Positions 36,364 through 44,123 of a stretch of 64,000 nucleotides of DNA are shown in pieces. The translations under genes were made by a program, and so were the position numbers. This stretch comes from Nocardiopsis kunsanensis DSM 44524. Lineage in GTDB: Bacteria > Actinomycetota > Actinomycetes > Streptosporangiales > Streptosporangiaceae. The DNA is taken from contig NZ_ANAY01000003.1 in assembly GCF_000340965.1 (NCBI RefSeq), positions 62,001 through 126,000 of the forward strand, in the 5' to 3' direction. Numbering within the stretch: the stretch's first letter is position 1; each line of letters begins with the position of its first letter. The notes below the pieces were generated by a model, which made no database searches, was not told the DNA's origin, and saw nothing but the letters and a program-made list of their open reading frames with translations.

Positions 36364-38016
36364 TCAGGGGCCGGGGACCGCGCGGCCACCGACCAGATGC
36401 AGTTGCCTGCCCTCCCAGTTGCGGCGCAGCCAGCGGTCGTGCGAGGCGACCACGACAGCGCCGGGTGCGGTGCCCAGGGCCTCCTCCAGCTCCTCGGCCA
36501 GTGACAACGACAGATGGTTGGTGGGCTCGTCCAGCAGCAGGACGTCGGGGGCGCGGCCCACGAGCATCGCCAGGGCCAGACGGCGGCGTTGGCCCGTACT
36601 GAGCAGGCCGACCGGCCGGTCCTGGTCGCGCGGGGCGACCAACCCCAGATCGACCAGCCGCGGCGCGTCGGTCCGTCCGGCGTTGAGCGCGTCGTAGAGC
36701 GAGCGCGGAGTGCGTTCGGGGTCGGCGAACCGCACGTCCTGTTCGAGCAGGGCCGCGGTGGTGCCACGGGCCCAGCTCACCTCACCCTCGGCGGGGGTCA
36801 GGCGGCGGGCGAGGGTGTACAGGAGTGTGGATTTTCCTGCCCCGTTCGGGCCGGTGACGAGCAGGCGCCCGTCGGCGGGCACGTCGAGGTGGGCCAGCCG
36901 CAGACGCCCGGGCACCTCGACCCCGCGCAACATCAGGGCCTGGTCCCCGGCCGTGGCAGGCCTGGCGGTCAGCTGTCCGGAGAAGGACAGTTTGCGCGGC
37001 GGTTTGCGCACCTGCTCGCGTTCGAGCTCCGCCAGGCGCCCGCGGGCATCACGCACCCGACGCGAGACCTGCTGCTGCACCCGCTCACCGGAGGCGTCGT
37101 AGTTCATCTTCTCGTTGTCCTTGGGCCTGCGGTTGTGCCCCACCCTGCGCGCGGTGGTGCGTACCGACTCGCGCAGGGCCTTCAACCGGTCCTGCTCGTA
37201 CTCGTGGCGCTGCTGCCAACGTTCGCGTTCGACCTGCTTCTCACGCAGGTAGTAGGTGTAGGCGCCCCCGTAGTGGACGGGCCCGTCCACGGCCGGGTCG
37301 AGGTCGACCAGGCCGGTGCAGACCGCGTCCAGGAAGACCCGGTCGTGGCTGGCCAGCACCACCAGACCGGGCAGGTCGCGCAGGTACCCCTCGAAGAACT
37401 CCAGCGCGCTGTCGTCGAGGTGGTTGGTGGGTTCGTCCAGCAGCAGGGCACGCGGTCGGCGGATGAGCAGCGCTGCCAGGGCCAGGCGGGCGCGTTGGCC
37501 GCCCGACATCCGTGCCACGGTGCGGCCGGCGTCCAGCCCGTCGAGCCCGAGTCCGGCCACGACGAGGCCGGCGCGCCGGTCGGCGTCCCAGACCTCGAGG
37601 CGTTCGGCGTCGGCCAGGAGATCGGCGTACTCGGCCAGGGCCCGGTCGTCCCCGGGTCCGGTGTCCACGGCCTCGGCGCTCAGGGCCAGGCGCCGTTCCA
37701 CCTCGCGGGCGGGCGCGAGCGCGTCGTCGACGACCCCGCCCAGGGTGGCCTCGGCCCCGTAGGGCAGTTCCTGATGCAGGAACCCGGTGTCGTCGGGACG
37801 TTCGATGTTGCCGGCGTCTGGCTCCTCCACGCCGGCGAGCAGGCGCAGGAGTGTGGACTTGCCGGCGCCGTTCTCCCCGACCAGGCCCAGGCGCTGGCCG
37901 GGTGCCACGTCGAGGCCGACCCCGTCCAGGACCACGTGGCCGCCGTAGGAACGGGACAGGTCACGGGCGCGCAGCAACGCGGCGCCGGTGGGAGCGGACA
38001 TGGTGTGCGGATTCAC
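36364..38016 (-). CDS. ABC-F family ATPase (ribosome-protection type)
   Basis: 550 residues from GTG 38016, which has AAGGGTGG upstream; ATG 38001 is an alternative. There are two ABC domains and no membrane segments. Domain 1 has GENGAGKST, MSGGQRARLALA and LLLDEPTNHLD. A roughly 90-residue charged linker (about 225-330) precedes domain 2 with GPNGAGKST, LSTGQRRRLALA and LLLDEPTNHLS, where the usual final aspartate is serine. This is the ABC-F layout; TlrC/OleB-like members protect ribosomes from macrolide, lincosamide or streptogramin drugs. The structured leader with a tripeptide ORF fits antibiotic-induced attenuation. The drug target is unknown. Confidence 0.88.
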   Translation of the reverse strand: MNPHTMSAPTGAALLRARDLSRSYGGHVVLDGVGLDVAPGQRLGLVGENGAGKSTLLRLLAGVEEPDAGNIERPDDTGFLHQELPYGAEATLGGVVDDALAPAREVERRLALSAEAVDTGPGDDRALAEYADLLADAERLEVWDADRRAGLVVAGLGLDGLDAGRTVARMSGGQRARLALAALLIRRPRALLLDEPTNHLDDSALEFFEGYLRDLPGLVVLASHDRVFLDAVCTGLVDLDPAVDGPVHYGGAYTYYLREKQVERERWQQRHEYEQDRLKALRESVRTTARRVGHNRRPKDNEKMNYDASGERVQQQVSRRVRDARGRLAELEREQVRKPPRKLSFSGQLTARPATAGDQALMLRGVEVPGRLRLAHLDVPADGRLLVTGPNGAGKSTLLYTLARRLTPAEGEVSWARGTTAALLEQDVRFADPERTPRSLYDALNAGRTDAPRLVDLGLVAPRDQDRPVGLLSTGQRRRLALAMLVGRAPDVLLLDEPTNHLSLSLAEELEEALGTAPGAVVVASHDRWLRRNWEGRQLHLVGGRAVPGP

Positions 38017-38103
38017 GGTGTGGGACCACCCTTCGTCATGGGGGTGGGCCTCGATGCGCGCAGGGGACCGCCGGCGGCGGTCCGCTGGGGCGAGGGTGTC
38101 GCC

Positions 38104-38208
38104 GACATCGAGACCGCACCACGGGCCGGGGCTGTGGCTCGCCGAGCGGGGTCGGCTCCAGCCCTCTCCGGGCGAGCCCCGCACACTCGGGCGATCGGTC
38201 TCGATGTC
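38104..38208 (-). promoter_or_regulatory. Candidate attenuator in ABC-F leader
   Basis: In the minus-strand leader GACATCGAGACCG (38196-38208) is perfectly complementary over 13 bp to CGGTCTCGATGTC (38104-38116). The 79-nt interval contains its own GGCTCGCC / GGCGAGCC pair. Further down, about 38066-38084, GGACCGCC pairs with GGCGGTCC just before the ABC-F start region. The first arm begins inside the stop codon of the tripeptide ORF, so a ribosome stalled there would block this pairing. Confidence 0.5.
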
Positions 38209-38218
38209 AGTTGCGCAT
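38207..38218 (-). CDS. Candidate leader peptide MRN (uORF)
   Basis: ATG-CGC-AAC-TGA encodes Met-Arg-Asn. It lies 9 nt after a TATTCT -10 box, so it would be at or within 3 nt of the 5' end of the mRNA and read as a leaderless or nearly leaderless uORF. Its stop codon overlaps the first arm of the leader inverted repeat. Three codons alone prove nothing; position relative to promoter and stem is the evidence. Confidence 0.4.
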   Translation of the reverse strand: MRN

Positions 38219-38227
38219 TGCTCGTGC

Positions 38228-38256
38228 AGAATAGCGGCACCGGACGGGCTGCGCAA
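38228..38256 (-). promoter_or_regulatory. Promoter of ABC-F gene
   Basis: On the minus strand TTGCGC (38256-38251), a 17-nt spacer and TATTCT (38233-38228). This puts the transcript start near 38221 and gives a leader of about 205 nt before the ABC-F GTG. Confidence 0.5.
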
Positions 38257-38336
38257 AGGTTTTTTCCACGCGCCCGCCCGAGCCGTCCCAGGGCCGGGCC
38301 CGACCACCTGGGCGGGGCGGGGCCCGGCGACACCGC

Positions 38337-40040
38337 TCAGTCGCGGTGGCGGAAGCTCCGGTACTGCTCGACCAGGGAGGCCGTGGAGGCGTCCAGTCCG
38401 GGCACGTCCTCCCCGTCGGTGAGGGCGGGTTCGACGCGCTTGGCCAGGGCCTTGCCGAGCTGGACCCCCCACTGGTCGAAGGAGTTGACGTTCCACACCG
38501 CGCCCTGCACGAACACCTTGTGCTCGTAGAGGGCGACGAGCTGGCCCAGAACCGCGGGGGTGAGCTGCCCGGCCAGGATCGTGGTGGTGGGTCGGTTGCC
38601 CGGGAAGGTGCGGTGCGGCACCAGGTGGGCGGGCACGTCTTCGGCGGCGGCCTCCTCGGCGGTGCGTCCGAAGGCCAGGGCCTGGCCCTGTGCGAAGAGG
38701 TTGGCCATGAGCAGGTCGTGCTGGCCGCGCAGGTGGTCGGGCAGGTCGGGGCCGGGTCGGGCGAACCCGATGAGGTCGGCGGGCACGAGGCGGGTGCCCT
38801 GGTGCAGGAGCTGGAAGTAGGCGTGCTGGCCGTTGGTGCCGGGGGTCCCCCAGACCACGGGGCCGGTGTTCCACGCGACCGGGCGCCCGTCGCGCTGGAC
38901 GGACTTTCCGTTGGACTCCATGTCGAGCTGCTGCAGGTAGGCCGGGAAACTCGCCAGGTGGTGGCTGTAGGGCAGCACGGCGTGCGTGTGGGCCTCGTGG
39001 AAGCCGCCGTACCAGATGCCCAGCATCCCGAGCAGGAGCGGCAGGTTGGCCTCGGCGGGCGCGGTCGCGAAGTGCTCGTCCATGAGGTGGAAGCCCCGGA
39101 GCATCTCACGGAACTGTTCGGTCCCCACGGCGATCATGAGTGGCAGCCCCACGGCCGAGTCGTAGGAGTAGCGGCCACCGACCCAGTCCCAGAACTCGAA
39201 CATGTGGGTGGTGTCGATGCCGAACCGGGCGACCTCGTCGGCGTTGGTGGAGACTGCGACGAAGTGGCGGGCCACGGCCTCGTCGTCGCCCTCGCGGCCC
39301 AGCGCGTCCAGGAGCCAGCGCTTGGCCTCGGCGGCGTTGGTGATGGTCTCCTGTGTGGTGAAGGTCTTGGAAGCGACCACGAACAGGGTCGTGGCGGGGT
39401 CGGCGTCGATGAGGGCCTCGTGCAGGTCGGAGCCGTCGACGTTGGAGACGAAACGGAACTCCAGGCCCCGGTCGCTGTAGGGACGCAGCGCCTCGTATGC
39501 CATGGCCGGGCCCAGGTCGGAGCCGCCGATGCCGATGTTGACCACGCGGGTGACGGGGCGCCCGGTCCGGCCCAGCCAGGTGCGGGCGCGGACCTTCTCG
39601 GCGAAGCCGGCCATGTGGTCCAGGACCCGGTGGACCTGGGGGACCACGTCCTGGCCGTCGGTGCGGACCACGGACTCGCGGGGAGCGCGCAGGGCGGTGT
39701 GCAGGACCGCACGGTCCTCGGTGACGTTGATGTGTTCGCCGCTGAGCATGGCGTCGCGCAGGTCGGCCACGCGGGTGGCGCGGGCGAGGTCGATCAGCAG
39801 GCGCCAGGTCCGGTCCGTCACGAGGTTCTTCGACAGGTCCACGTGCAGGTCGCCCACGCGCAGGCTGTTGCGGTCCACGCGTTCGGGGTCGGCGTCGAAC
39901 AGTTCGCGCAGGTGGGTGGAGCCCAGCTGGGCGCGGTGCTCCTCCAGGGCCTTCCACTCGTACCTGCGGTCCAGTGCGATGGCCGCCTCGGCCCGGTCCC
40001 CGGTCGCTTCGGCGCGGGGCAGAGGTGTGCTGGCAGACAT
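38337..40040 (-). CDS. pgi: Glucose-6-phosphate isomerase
   Basis: 567 residues, the usual length of the long (E. coli-type) PGI. Signatures include [72 protein letters not shown] and [16 protein letters not shown], covering the phosphate-binding and catalytic segments. It interconverts glucose-6-phosphate and fructose-6-phosphate in the cytoplasm. The ATG at 40040 is preceded by AGGAG. The gene stands alone; the ABC-F promoter lies just past its stop. Confidence 0.97.
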
Positions 40041-41021: not shown

Positions 41022-41723
41022 TCAGTCGGCCGAGGCCCCGAGTTCGGCACGCAACCAGTGCTCCACCCGCATCACGTGGGTCGTGGCGGCAGCGCGGGCG
41101 GCGTCGGGGTCGCGGGTCAGGAGCGCCTCGTGGATGCGGTGGTGGTCCTCGCGGAGTTTGGCGGTGAGCCCGGCCTCGCGGTGTCCGTGCCAGACGCGGG
41201 CGTGGAAGCTCGCGGAGCTGAGGCCGTCGCTGACCGCGGCGAGGGTGGCGTTGCCGGTGGCGGTGACGATCGCCTGGTGGAAGCCGAGGTCGGCGGAGAC
41301 GGTGCAGTCCCCGCCGTCGATGTCTTCCAGCAGGGTGCCGATGTGGGCGATCTGGGCGTCGTCGGCGCGTGCGGCGGCCAGGGCGGTGGCGGCGGGTTCG
41401 AGCATGCGGCGCACCTGGAGGACCTCCAGGAGGGTGGAGCCCTGGGAGACCTCGGCCAGCACGGAGAAGGTCTCCAGCAGGTCGGCGGGGCGCAGGGCGG
41501 TGACGTAGACGCCGGCGCCGTGGCGTGATTCCAGGACACCCAGGGTGATGAGGGCGCGGATGGCCTCGCGCATGGAGCTGCGGGAGACCCCGAGGTCGGC
41601 CGCCAGGTCGCGTTCGGTGGGAAGGCGGTCACCCGGGCCGAAACTGCCGTCGGCGATCCGGCGTTTGATCTCCTCGACGGCCCTCTGGGTCACGGGGGTG
41701 CGCCGGGCGTCGAGGTCGGTCAC
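41022..41723 (-). CDS. GntR/FadR-family repressor, LldR/LutR-like
   Basis: 233 residues from GTG 41723. The winged helix-turn-helix occupies residues 8-75 (AVEEIKRRIADGSFGPGDRL, LPTERDLAADLGVSRSSMRE, AIRALITLGVLESRHGAGVY), followed by an all-helical FCD effector domain with the metal/ligand histidines DLGFHQAI and HHRIHEALL. It is divergent from lutABC and by analogy with LldR/LutR should release the operator when lactate is present. A perfect palindrome GTGGTCGGACCAC lies between the genes. Confidence 0.9.
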   Translation of the reverse strand: MTDLDARRTPVTQRAVEEIKRRIADGSFGPGDRLPTERDLAADLGVSRSSMREAIRALITLGVLESRHGAGVYVTALRPADLLETFSVLAEVSQGSTLLEVLQVRRMLEPAATALAAARADDAQIAHIGTLLEDIDGGDCTVSADLGFHQAIVTATGNATLAAVSDGLSSASFHARVWHGHREAGLTAKLREDHHRIHEALLTRDPDAARAAATTHVMRVEHWLRAELGASAD

Positions 41724-41900
41724 GGAGGTCTCCAGGTGTCGTGGGCCGGTTGGACGCGCCGGGGGATGGGAACCATCGTGGCAGTTTCTCCCCGCCCACA
41801 CTAAGAGATCGTACCAATCCCCCTTCCGAGATTCGGAGAACACCCAGAACCTGCTTGGTCATGGACACGTTCCTTGTTCCGCTCTTGACCTCGTGCCAGA

Positions 41901-41913
41901 GTGGTCGGACCAC
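41901..41913 (+). promoter_or_regulatory. Palindromic operator upstream of lutA
   Basis: GTGGTC-G-GACCAC is a perfect 6-1-6 palindrome of the TGGTCNGACCA type bound by FadR-subfamily GntR repressors. It starts 10 bp after a TTGACC -35-like element (41885-41890) and lies 24 bp before the lutA ATG, so a bound repressor would block transcription. Confidence 0.65.
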
Positions 41914-41937
41914 TGACGGGTGGATTGGAGAAGGAAC

Positions 41938-42705
41938 ATGCGGATCGCGCTGTTCATCACCTGTGTCAACGACACGTTGTTCCCCGACACGGGGCGGGCC
42001 GTGGTCGAACTGCTGGAGCGGCTGGGGCACGAGGTGGTCTTCCCCCAAGGGCAGACCTGCTGCGGACAGATGCACTACAACACCGGCTACCGGCGCCCGG
42101 CCACGAAGCTCGCGGTGCGTTTCGTGCAGACCTTCGACGGGGCCGACGCGGTGGTGGTCCCCTCGGCCTCGTGCGCGGCCATGATCCGCGAGCACTACCC
42201 CCGGCTGGGCCGGAGCGGCAGCCGCCTGTCCCGCAAGGTCGCCGCCCTGGCCCCGCGCGTGTACGACCTGACCGAGCTGCTCGTGGACGTGCTCGGGGTG
42301 ACCGACGTGGACGCCTACTACCCGCACCGGGTCGCCTACCACCCCACCTGCCACGGGCTGCGGATGCTCGGCCTGGGCGACCGCCCCTACCGCCTGCTGC
42401 GCGCTGTGCGCGGCCTCGACCTGGTGGAGGTCGGCCGACCCGAGGAGTGCTGCGGGTTCGGCGGCACCTTCGCGCTCAAGAACAGTGACGTCTCCACCGC
42501 CATGGGCGCCGACAAGGCCCGCCAGGCCGTCGACACCGGGGCGGAGGTGCTGTGCATGGTCGACAACTCCTGCCTGATGCACGTGGGCGGGATCCTGCAG
42601 CGCCAGCGCTCGGGCGTGCGGGTCGCCCACATCGCCGAGATCCTCGCCCGCACCGAGACGAGCGAAGCCGCCGTCTCCCCCACCACGGAAGAGGCAGACC
42701 GTTGA
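41938..42705 (+). CDS. lutA: Lactate utilization protein A, Fe-S oxidoreductase
   Basis: 255 residues from ATG 41938 behind GGAGAAGGA. Two CCG domains carry the cysteine motifs: QTCCGQMHYNTGYRRPA near residue 40 and ECCGFGGTFALKNSDVSTAM near residue 170, typical of LutA/YkgE and heterodisulfide-reductase-like subunits. With LutB and LutC it oxidises L-lactate to pyruvate. It overlaps lutB (stop TGA at 42703-42705 within the TTG start), so the operon is tightly coupled. Confidence 0.94.
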   Translation: MRIALFITCVNDTLFPDTGRAVVELLERLGHEVVFPQGQTCCGQMHYNTGYRRPATKLAVRFVQTFDGADAVVVPSASCAAMIREHYPRLGRSGSRLSRKVAALAPRVYDLTELLVDVLGVTDVDAYYPHRVAYHPTCHGLRMLGLGDRPYRLLRAVRGLDLVEVGRPEECCGFGGTFALKNSDVSTAMGADKARQAVDTGAEVLCMVDNSCLMHVGGILQRQRSGVRVAHIAEILARTETSEAAVSPTTEEADR

Positions 42706-44123
42706 GTGCCACGTTCCTGGGTATGCCGCCCTTCCCCGAGGCCGCCCGGGCGGCCGTCGAGGACTCCCAGCTGCGCCACAACCTGCACAAGGCCACCCAC
42801 ACCATCCGCGACAAACGCGGCCAGGCCGTCGGCGAGCTCGACGACTGGGCCGAACTGCGTTCCGAGGGGGCCGCGATCAAGGAACACACCCTGCGCCACC
42901 TGGACCGCTACCTGGAACAGGTGGAGGAGTCGGTGCAGCGGGCCGGCGGGACGGTGCACTGGGCCTCCGACGCCGCGGAGGCCAACGCGATCGTCACCCG
43001 CCTGGTGCACGGGACCGGGCAGAGCGACGTGGTCAAGGTCAAGTCGATGGCCACGCAGGAGATCGAACTCAACCGGGCGCTGGAACAGGCCGGCATCACC
43101 GCCTACGAGACCGACCTGGCCGAACTCATCGTGCAGTTGGGCCAGGACCTGCCCTCGCACATCCTGGTGCCCGCCATCCACCTGGGGCGGGCCCGGATCC
43201 GGGAGATCTTCCTGGAGCACATGGCCCGGTGGGGCGTGCCGGCTCCCCAGGGACTGACCGACGACCCGCGTGCGCTGGCCGAAGCCGCCCGTGTCCACCT
43301 GCGCGAGCGGTTCCTCAACACCCGTACCGCGATCTCGGGGGCCAATTTCGTGGTCGCCGACTCCGGGACGACGGTGGTCCTGGAGTCGGAGGGCAACGGG
43401 CGCATGTGCCTGACCCTGCCCGAGACCCTCATCTCCGTGGTCGGCATCGAGAAGATCGTGCCGACCTTCGACGACCTGGAGGTGTTCATGCAGCTGCTGC
43501 CGCGCTCCTCCACCGGCGAACGCATGAACCCCTACACGTCGATGTGGAGCGGGGTGGCCCCGGGCGACGGGCCACAGGAGTTCCACCTGGTCCTGCTGGA
43601 CAACGGACGCACCGACGTGCTCGCCGACACCGTGGGGCGCCAGGCACTGCGGTGCATCCGCTGCTCGGCCTGCCTGAACGCCTGCCCGGTCTACGAGCGC
43701 ACGGGCGGGCACGCCTACGGGTCGGTCTATCCCGGCCCGATCGGGGCGATCCTCACCCCTCAGCTGCAGGGGATGTCCTCGGAGACGGACCGGTCGCTGC
43801 CCTACGCCTCCTCCCTGTGCGGGGCCTGTTACGAGGTGTGCCCGGTGGCCATCGACATCCCCGAGGTCCTGGTGCACCTGCGCGAACAGGCCGTGGAAGG
43901 GCCCGGGCGCACGGGCGAGAAGGCGATGATGGCCGGTGCGGAGGCGGCGCTGTCCTCGCCCGCCGCGTTGGAGGCCGCGCAGCGGGCCGCCTCCGCGGTG
44001 CGCGGCGCCGTGCCCCGGCACCTGCCCGGGGCGGCCTCGGCCTGGACCGACACCCGTTCGGTGCCCGAGATCCCGGAGGAGTCCTTCCGCCGGTGGTGGA
44101 AGAAACGAGGAGAGGAGCGCTGA
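42702..44123 (+). CDS. lutB: Lactate utilization protein B, iron-sulfur protein
   Basis: 473 residues if translation begins at TTG 42702, which overlaps the lutA stop; ATG 42723 is an alternative. The LUD domain covers the first 300 residues (GISGAN-type segment TAISGANFVVADSGTTVVLE). Two [4Fe-4S] ferredoxin motifs follow: CIRCSACLNACPVY and CGACYEVCPVAIDIP. It is the electron-transfer subunit of the lactate oxidation complex. The stop shares one base with the lutC ATG. Confidence 0.94.
   Translation: MSATFLGMPPFPEAARAAVEDSQLRHNLHKATHTIRDKRGQAVGELDDWAELRSEGAAIKEHTLRHLDRYLEQVEESVQRAGGTVHWASDAAEANAIVTRLVHGTGQSDVVKVKSMATQEIELNRALEQAGITAYETDLAELIVQLGQDLPSHILVPAIHLGRARIREIFLEHMARWGVPAPQGLTDDPRALAEAARVHLRERFLNTRTAISGANFVVADSGTTVVLESEGNGRMCLTLPETLISVVGIEKIVPTFDDLEVFMQLLPRSSTGERMNPYTSMWSGVAPGDGPQEFHLVLLDNGRTDVLADTVGRQALRCIRCSACLNACPVYERTGGHAYGSVYPGPIGAILTPQLQGMSSETDRSLPYASSLCGACYEVCPVAIDIPEVLVHLREQAVEGPGRTGEKAMMAGAEAALSSPAALEAAQRAASAVRGAVPRHLPGAASAWTDTRSVPEIPEESFRRWWKKRGEER

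Follow-up and report, generated by a model that had tools for sequence, protein, structure and literature searches.

A conserved, very short upstream reading frame in the leader of an actinomycete ABC-F gene: a candidate ribosome-operated, antibiotic-sensing attenuator

Gene, promoter and leader reading frame

In the 64,000-nt stretch of Nocardiopsis DNA analysed here (the window), an ABC-F gene and a set of leader elements all lie on the minus strand (Table 1), the leader occupying the space between the gene and an open reading frame at 38337-40040 that we take to encode glucose-6-phosphate isomerase. The main GTG aligns with the ATG of relatives; the protein query for ortholog searches started one codon upstream of it (38019). 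The encoded protein contains two PF00005 stretches in one chain and no membrane-domain family among its 17 Pfam matches, the pattern used to recognise ABC-F proteins, and its three best NCBIfam matches are ABC-F models. Because the best of them, NF000171 (TlrC/CarA/OleB/SrmB), gives 409.8 bits against a curated cut-off of 800, we grade the protein as a relative of this family and not as a certified member; two of its own relatives score 501 and 478 bits with the same model. Elsewhere in the window, at 41022-44123, a presumed GntR-type regulator gene (minus strand) faces genes similar to the LutABC lactate-utilisation operon, as judged from the ORF translations alone.

Table 1. Elements of the ABC-F leader, in window coordinates
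Feature	Coordinates	Strand	Remarks
A/T block AAAAAA, 3 bp upstream of -35	38260..38265	(-)	WblC/WhiB7-like box, imperfect match to GAAAWY
-35 element TTGCGC	38251..38256	(-)	sequence and leader comparison
-10 element TATTCT	38228..38233	(-)	17-nt spacer to -35; sequence and leader comparison
uORF ATG CGC AAC TGA (Met-Arg-Asn-stop)	38207..38218	(-)	9 nt after -10; predicted 5'-UTR 2-3 nt
Arm 1 GACATCGAGACCG	38196..38208	(-)	starts in uORF stop; 13-bp inverted repeat search
Arm 2 CGGTCTCGATGTC	38104..38116	(-)	two alternative partners: arm 1 over 13 bp, arm 3 over 10 bp (one G-U)
Arm 3 CATCGAGGCC	38047..38056	(-)	imperfect copy of arm 1 and its competitor for arm 2
3' part of arm 3 and next bases GGCCCACCC	38042..38050	(-)	pairs with arm 4; MFE, both-side changes
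SD-like bases and arm 4 (38031-38023) GAAGGGTGGTCC	38023..38034	(-)	conserved near main start in Nocardiopsis-genus leaders; putative SD role
ABC-F gene	36364..38016	(-)	GTG start 38016-38014, stop 36366-36364

As judged from sequence, the promoters of the window and of several related clades have a WblC/WhiB7-like box. Published promoters of this regulon carry a GAAAWY box 3 bp upstream of the -35, a spacer of 17-18 and a TANNNT -10 (excerpt of PMC7157823). The window promoter, AAAAAA-CCT-TTGCGC-17-TATTCT, shares this layout of A/T box, spacer and -10, with a box that fits GAAAWY imperfectly; a generic sigma-70 scan reports 0 promoters at the locus because TTGCGC matches just 3/6 of the -35 used by that scan. 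Counted back from the -35, positions -8 to -5 have an AT fraction of 0.86-1.0 in 21 Nocardiopsis-genus leaders and positions -14 to -9 one of at most 0.14; 17 of these 21 hold a G[AT]AA motif. At -8 to -5 the fraction is 0.79-0.93 in other genera of the same GTDB family and falls to 0.65-0.82 in the family that we labelled f19. Unlike in WblC/WhiB7 promoters, the box is near background in Microbacteriaceae and in family f17, with the motif in 2/37 and 0/7 leaders respectively, and the uORF is still present there.

Eight WhiB-like loci were found in the genome, one of which, read by eye, has GVWGG followed by an RPRGRPRK AT hook; a loose AT-hook flag in our script marked two others as well. Since the A/T box resembles the WblC/WhiB7 box and the genome has one such AT-hook locus, WblC probably raises transcription under antibiotic stress, with the uORF predicted to gate translation. 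The WblC/WhiB7-like gene of this genome (L163, minus strand, ~2380-1695) has its own promoter-like sequence, AAAAAT-GGG-TTGCCG, and a leader of ~600 nt, an arrangement in line with autoregulation.

Most WblC-dependent transcripts of S. coelicolor start 7 or 8 bp downstream of the -10 (excerpt of PMC7157823), and for this reason a 5'-UTR of only 2-3 nt is predicted ahead of the window uORF. The promoter-plus-uORF pattern occurs once in the 5.3-Mb genome and 0 times in the reversed control. To follow the element in relatives, orthologs were collected from the genus (40 genomes, 22 with a match at E <= 1e-150), from named genomes (59 loci), from the family (150 genomes, 35 with a match at E <= 1e-110) and from the class (394 genomes, 57 with a match at E <= 1e-120, plus 32 more upstream stretches). 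Once duplicates (L001, L024, L025, L026, which equals L092, and L110) and weak matches below 45% identity (L064, L065, L067-L082) were removed, 132 upstream regions were left. A codon-blind pattern (TANNNT, 7-10 nt, RTG, one or two codons, stop) is present in 85 of them, whereas 50 dinucleotide-shuffle sets averaged 0.2 and never exceeded 2; here and below, related sequences are not independent and shuffle counts are not probabilities.

With variants read by eye, a uORF of 1-5 codons could be placed a short way downstream of the -10 in 107/132 regions: 21 from the genus Nocardiopsis, 14 from other genera of the same GTDB family, 37 from Microbacteriaceae (Leifsonia and Agromyces, both checked, and further genera that presumably belong there), 7 from f17, 17 from f19 and 11 others. 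The locator patterns were composed after the sequences had been read, and the codon counts are therefore not blind, the blind test being the 85/132 pattern; three uORFs (L086, L096, L147) were assigned by hand and 12 Jiangella-type leaders were counted as ATG-TGA by choice of reading. Position and frame are the same in 21 of the 22 Nocardiopsis-genus loci. The exception, L020, and 24 other regions of the 132 (L038, L097-L109, L116-L118, L120, L149, L151-L155) have no uORF, which counts against our reading.

The 107 uORFs start with ATG (95) or GTG (12) and end with TGA (98), TAA (7) or TAG (2). Their peptides include MRN (15 leaders), MRH, MRM, MRL, MRI, MLN, MKL, MEL and MWI; codon 2 thus varies among Arg, Lys, Leu, Trp and Glu. 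Met-Lys-stop, a frame of two codons, is found in 33 leaders, in Microbacteriaceae with each of the three stops, and four leaders have a five-codon uORF. What is conserved is the frame and not its letters: start, stop and codon 3 all vary. In 106/107 leaders the uORF starts 7-10 nt behind the best-scoring -10, under a scoring that mildly favours spacings near 8.5; the distance is 9-10 nt in 21/21 Nocardiopsis-genus leaders and 7-8 nt in 13/14 from other genera of the GTDB family, where 11/14 start with GTG. Because this spacing resembles the -10-to-start distance of S. coelicolor WblC promoters, we predict that the uORFs either are leaderless or follow just 1-3 nt.

Alternative pairings in Nocardiopsis-type leaders

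The preliminary description of this DNA had the promoter right to the base and correctly placed the uORF at or within 3 nt of the predicted 5' end. A repeat search also confirmed its 13-bp perfect inverted repeat (arms 1 and 2), the first arm of which begins, as it said, inside the uORF stop, at the G of TGA. The mutually exclusive stem that it proposed exists as well, arm 2 pairing with either arm 1 or arm 3, but the leader has four arms, and arms 3 and 4 had been missed. Loss of the uORF or of the arms in relatives was named there as grounds for rejection; in the comparison the uORF is kept as described above, and the arms are conserved and compensate at a few positions.

None of 200 dinucleotide shuffles folds as well as the window leader (z -3.7). 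In one fold, hereafter the off fold, arm 1 pairs with arm 2 (1:2) and arm 3 with arm 4 (3:4), and arm 4 overlaps the SD-like GAAGGG. In a comparison of 22 leaders, 97.6% of the off fold is paired and 5 of its pairs have changed on both sides, with such changes in helices 2 and 3; 0/500 shuffles are as high and versions slid along the sequence are 31-46% paired. The competing on helix (2:3) is 99.1% paired with zero both-side changes in the same 22 leaders. Addition of other genera gave a set of 33 leaders (L091 and L095, whose arms differ, were left out) in which 1:2 (10-bp core) is 95.8% and 2:3 93.9% paired, against 41% for the control pairing 1:3; the value for 2:3 is inside the shuffle range (mean 92.8, max 94.2). 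Both-side changes occur in 3 cells for 1:2 and in 6 cells for 2:3, the latter at 2 positions, and each count was met by 1/1000 shuffles. In L096, arms 1, 2 and 3 are altered in step. There are 18 distinct arm triples among the 33 leaders, and because arms 1 and 2 hardly vary within Nocardiopsis, the covariation depends on few events: it is modest here and stronger in Jiangellaceae.

A ribosome stalled on Met-Arg-Asn-stop had been suggested to mask arm 1 and to switch the downstream fold. Folding was computed for 20 leaders (L022 and L026 were left out). When these are free, the probability of 1:2 exceeds 0.9 in 18/20; when their first 18 nt are masked, that of 2:3 exceeds 0.5 in 11/20, and to this extent the suggestion stands. 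Its read-out on the SD is weak: masking lowers 3:4 by more than 0.2 in just 10/20 leaders, the accessibility of the SD in the window leader does not clearly rise in these computations, and in the thermodynamic model total arm 4 pairing goes only from 0.80 to 0.75 over the 20 leaders. For this last reason the read-out is deduced mainly from the anatomy of the leader, and computed folding backs the switch in part. The idea of two mutually exclusive folds, one of them closing the SD or the start, is borne out by pairings that were found and are partly compensated.

Simpler leaders in related genes

Other families appear to use more compact versions. In f17 relatives, with leaders of ~80-110 nt, the stretch that follows the uORF stop, TGACACCACC, matches a GGTGGTG or GGTGGT that directly precedes the main start (L111-L115, L119). 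Jiangellaceae (f19) have a stem whose 5' arm sets out from the stop codon that follows the uORF start and whose 3' arm contains the main GTG, on which the stem closes; it encloses two inner hairpins, one of them with GAGG. Over 17 sequences, its 27 pairs are 92.7% paired and 7 of them have both-side changes, with 0/500 shuffles as high; slid controls are 31-46% paired, the version slid by -3 being 41% paired with 6 pairs that have both-side changes, and further pair types are no more numerous than in the shuffles. In their own MFE, three sequences (L129, L134, L137) do not form the outer stem in this shape. The covariation of this stem is, in our judgement, the strongest structural evidence in the set. 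Candidate arms are present in Agromyces and Leifsonia (Microbacteriaceae), where they are too invariant to give a covariation signal.

Direct pairing between the segment behind the uORF and the main initiation region was considered as a general rule and rejected, since z < -2 was reached in 17/105 leaders only. It is found in many Jiangellaceae and some f17 leaders and not in Nocardiopsis (the low z of L021 comes from a search stretch that reaches arm 2), which is why the four-arm model is used there.

The shortest frame is met in 12 Jiangella-type leaders that share GATGTGATC, where an ATG lies 8 nt after the presumed -10, roughly where the transcript would start, with TGA immediately behind; the stem that closes on the main GTG sets out from the TGA after that. 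These bases can be read as ATG-TGA or, in another frame, as the two-codon GTG-ATC-TGA; L137 keeps ATG-TGA alone. In E. coli, AUGUGA sites are usable in both frames (excerpt of PMC9841429). Because the presumed -10 is mostly CATCAT, with TANNNT just in L142, the start site of these leaders is uncertain. A start-stop pair could conceivably serve as the sensor, a drug trapping the initiating or terminating ribosome with no nascent peptide needed, a possibility that we put forward tentatively and would rather doubt; together with Met-Lys-stop in 33 leaders, such a sensor would mean that the ribosome at a leaderless start itself does the sensing.

An inner hairpin, CCCGCG-YCCGAGGC ... GCCCGGCGGG, is common to compact leaders of several families (for example L083, L111, L135, L030); its sequence has changed little, and it may serve a separate function. 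Regions that have no uORF show other arrangements. Thirteen of them (L097-L105, L116-L118, L120) come, by eye, after the end of a further ABC-F gene, an order that suggests tandem ABC-F operons served by a single leader. Loci L107-L109, L149 and L151-L155 (46-50% identical) have a TTAATGC...GCATTAA-like palindrome near the promoter and adjoin, by eye, a TetR-type regulator-like gene, so that a repressor seems to take the place of the attenuator. L106, in which the element of the window is absent, has a frame MAGDDDISG-stop upstream of its ABC-F gene, near the MVGDDDISG of tiaA (PMC12421871), and we regard it as a different leader type in the same protein family.

Proposed mechanism, alternatives and known systems

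We read the leader as a real, conserved regulatory element and as a variant of ribosome-mediated attenuation that very probably senses antibiotics, and probably as a translational attenuator of an ABC-F ribosome-protection gene. The WblC-type promoter would yield an mRNA whose 5' end lies within 2-3 nt of the uORF. When no drug is present, the ribosome would quit the uORF at once, 1:2 and 3:4 would form and the SD region would be closed. With a drug that blocks the first peptide bonds, a ribosome would remain on the uORF and reach to ~+16 (counted from the A of AUG), where it would cover the stop and about half of arm 1; arm 2 would then pair with arm 3, arm 4 and the SD would be freed, and ABC-F protein would be made. 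In the compact leaders of relatives, the segment behind the uORF would pair directly with the main initiation region in a two-state version of the same device. Translation of the uORF, stalling, drug class and output are all steps that we infer. Because the last pairing of the switch involves the SD region of the ABC-F gene, its output is predicted to be translation. To judge from are5sc and tiaA, macrolides are the less likely inducers: lincosamides, pristinamycin IIA and tiamulin stall ribosomes on the start codons of the uORFs are5scL1 and tiaAL, whereas erythromycin does not (PMC12421871).

The same uORF and stall might act on transcription instead, a leader hairpin ending it unless a ribosome stalls, as in lmrC, are5sc and vmlR; we hold this to be unlikely, though worth keeping in mind. 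Actinobacterial terminators often lack a U tract, and one of that kind would go unnoticed in the scan that returned 0 terminator-like sites in 37900-38400, which relies on a T run. The characterised actinobacterial lmrC and are5sc are indeed transcriptional (excerpt of PMC8546547; PMC12421871), whereas tiaA is apparently controlled at translation (PMC12421871), and in the present leaders the SD region or the start codon itself lies within the terminal pairing, the 3' arm of Jiangellaceae holding the main GTG itself. Considerably less probable is a uORF that senses slow translation in general, such as amino-acid starvation or initiation stress, and not a drug. The window promoter is of the WblC type, and attenuation of wblC responds to many ribosome-targeting antibiotics and to amino-acid starvation (excerpt of PMC12421871); against this, no one amino acid can be the signal because codon 2 varies and the start is followed by just one codon in 33 leaders, and the regulated gene resembles ABC-F resistance proteins.

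Chance was rejected as the origin of the repeat, given its conservation (the blind pattern in 85/132 regions against a shuffle mean of 0.2, and the arm pairing over 33 leaders). A known RNA family was likewise rejected: Rfam gave no gathering-level match in eight relatives, and in the window region one sub-threshold match on the other strand (16.3 bits against a gathering score of 88). That result leaves room for an undescribed ligand-binding RNA, and the TGA also belongs to the stem, so that ATG-CGC-AAC-TGA might be an untranslated 5'-end RNA or promoter element whose stems act through a bound protein or ligand and not through a ribosome. We give this very little credence, since start (ATG or GTG), stop (TGA, TAA or TAG) and frame length (2, 3 or 5 codons) shift as they would in a reading frame, and Met-Lys-stop of Microbacteriaceae takes all three stops.

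Why might such uORFs have gone unreported? One reason may be that uORF4u looks for an SD in the 20 nt ahead of a prokaryotic uORF and has a default lower limit of 9 bases (excerpt of PMC10219788), so that frames of this kind could escape tools that require an SD and a minimum of nine bases. Among the matches listed in our literature search, judged by title and start of abstract, no publication on such leaders was found, which does not prove their absence in print. If the ribosome-operated attenuator is real, intrinsic ABC-F genes in several actinomycete families would be switched by uORFs of 1-5 codons at the mRNA 5' end, a lower size limit would be set for a ribosome-based drug sensor, leaderless initiation would become a regulatory device, and WblC activation and attenuation, two layers of the antibiotic response, would be united on one short leader.

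In ermC-type control, four segments pair as 1:2 and 3:4 in the off state and as 2:3 in the on state, as proposed here. There too the main gene's SD becomes accessible when a ribosome stalls on the leader ORF (uORF4u paper, excerpt of PMC10219788), but the window has a 3-residue leader peptide in place of a longer arrest peptide, its leader ORF has no SD and the regulated gene is an ABC-F gene. In two-codon minigenes, axe-txe mg2 and EHEC LEE1, a two-codon leader ORF acts in cis on the next gene (excerpt of PMC8708949), as Met-Lys-stop would; mg2 is presented there as a positive element with translation signals of its own, neither is described as a drug sensor in that excerpt, and here Met-Lys-stop lies at the predicted 5' end. 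Further known cases are are5sc (uORFs MLV and MRS) and tiaA (MVGDDDISG) of S. coelicolor (PMC12421871) and lmrC of S. lincolnensis, where translation of uORF2 matters (excerpt of PMC8546547): all are actinobacterial ABC-F genes, with short uORFs in are5sc and tiaA. Unlike the present frames, the are5sc and tiaA uORFs have ribosome binding sites, and are5sc and lmrC are under transcriptional control.

The preliminary description thought so short a uORF unusual, a view that does not hold, as three-codon frames are known ahead of ABC-F genes: MIN for VmlR, MR[I/M] (for instance MRI) for CplR and MK[L/Q] for VmlR2 (excerpt of PMC10201436), with MDN, MDK and MRK as variants of MIN (excerpt of PMC9226507). 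In vmlR of B. subtilis and cplR of Clostridioides, as proposed here, stalling on such a uORF before the ARE-ABCF gene switches folds; the vmlR toeprint of the 30S lies 16 nt from the start codon (excerpt of PMC9226507), and the terminator hairpin of cplR also holds the main SD (excerpt of PMC10201436). Both differ from the window in their intrinsic terminators, no terminator-like site having been found by our scan of 37900-38400, and the vmlR uORF follows an SD, whereas the window uORF sits at the predicted 5' end with no room for one. Three-codon uORFs are thus established for ABC-F control; what is new in these leaders is the predicted leaderless placement, the frames of two and perhaps one codon, and the breadth of families that carry them.
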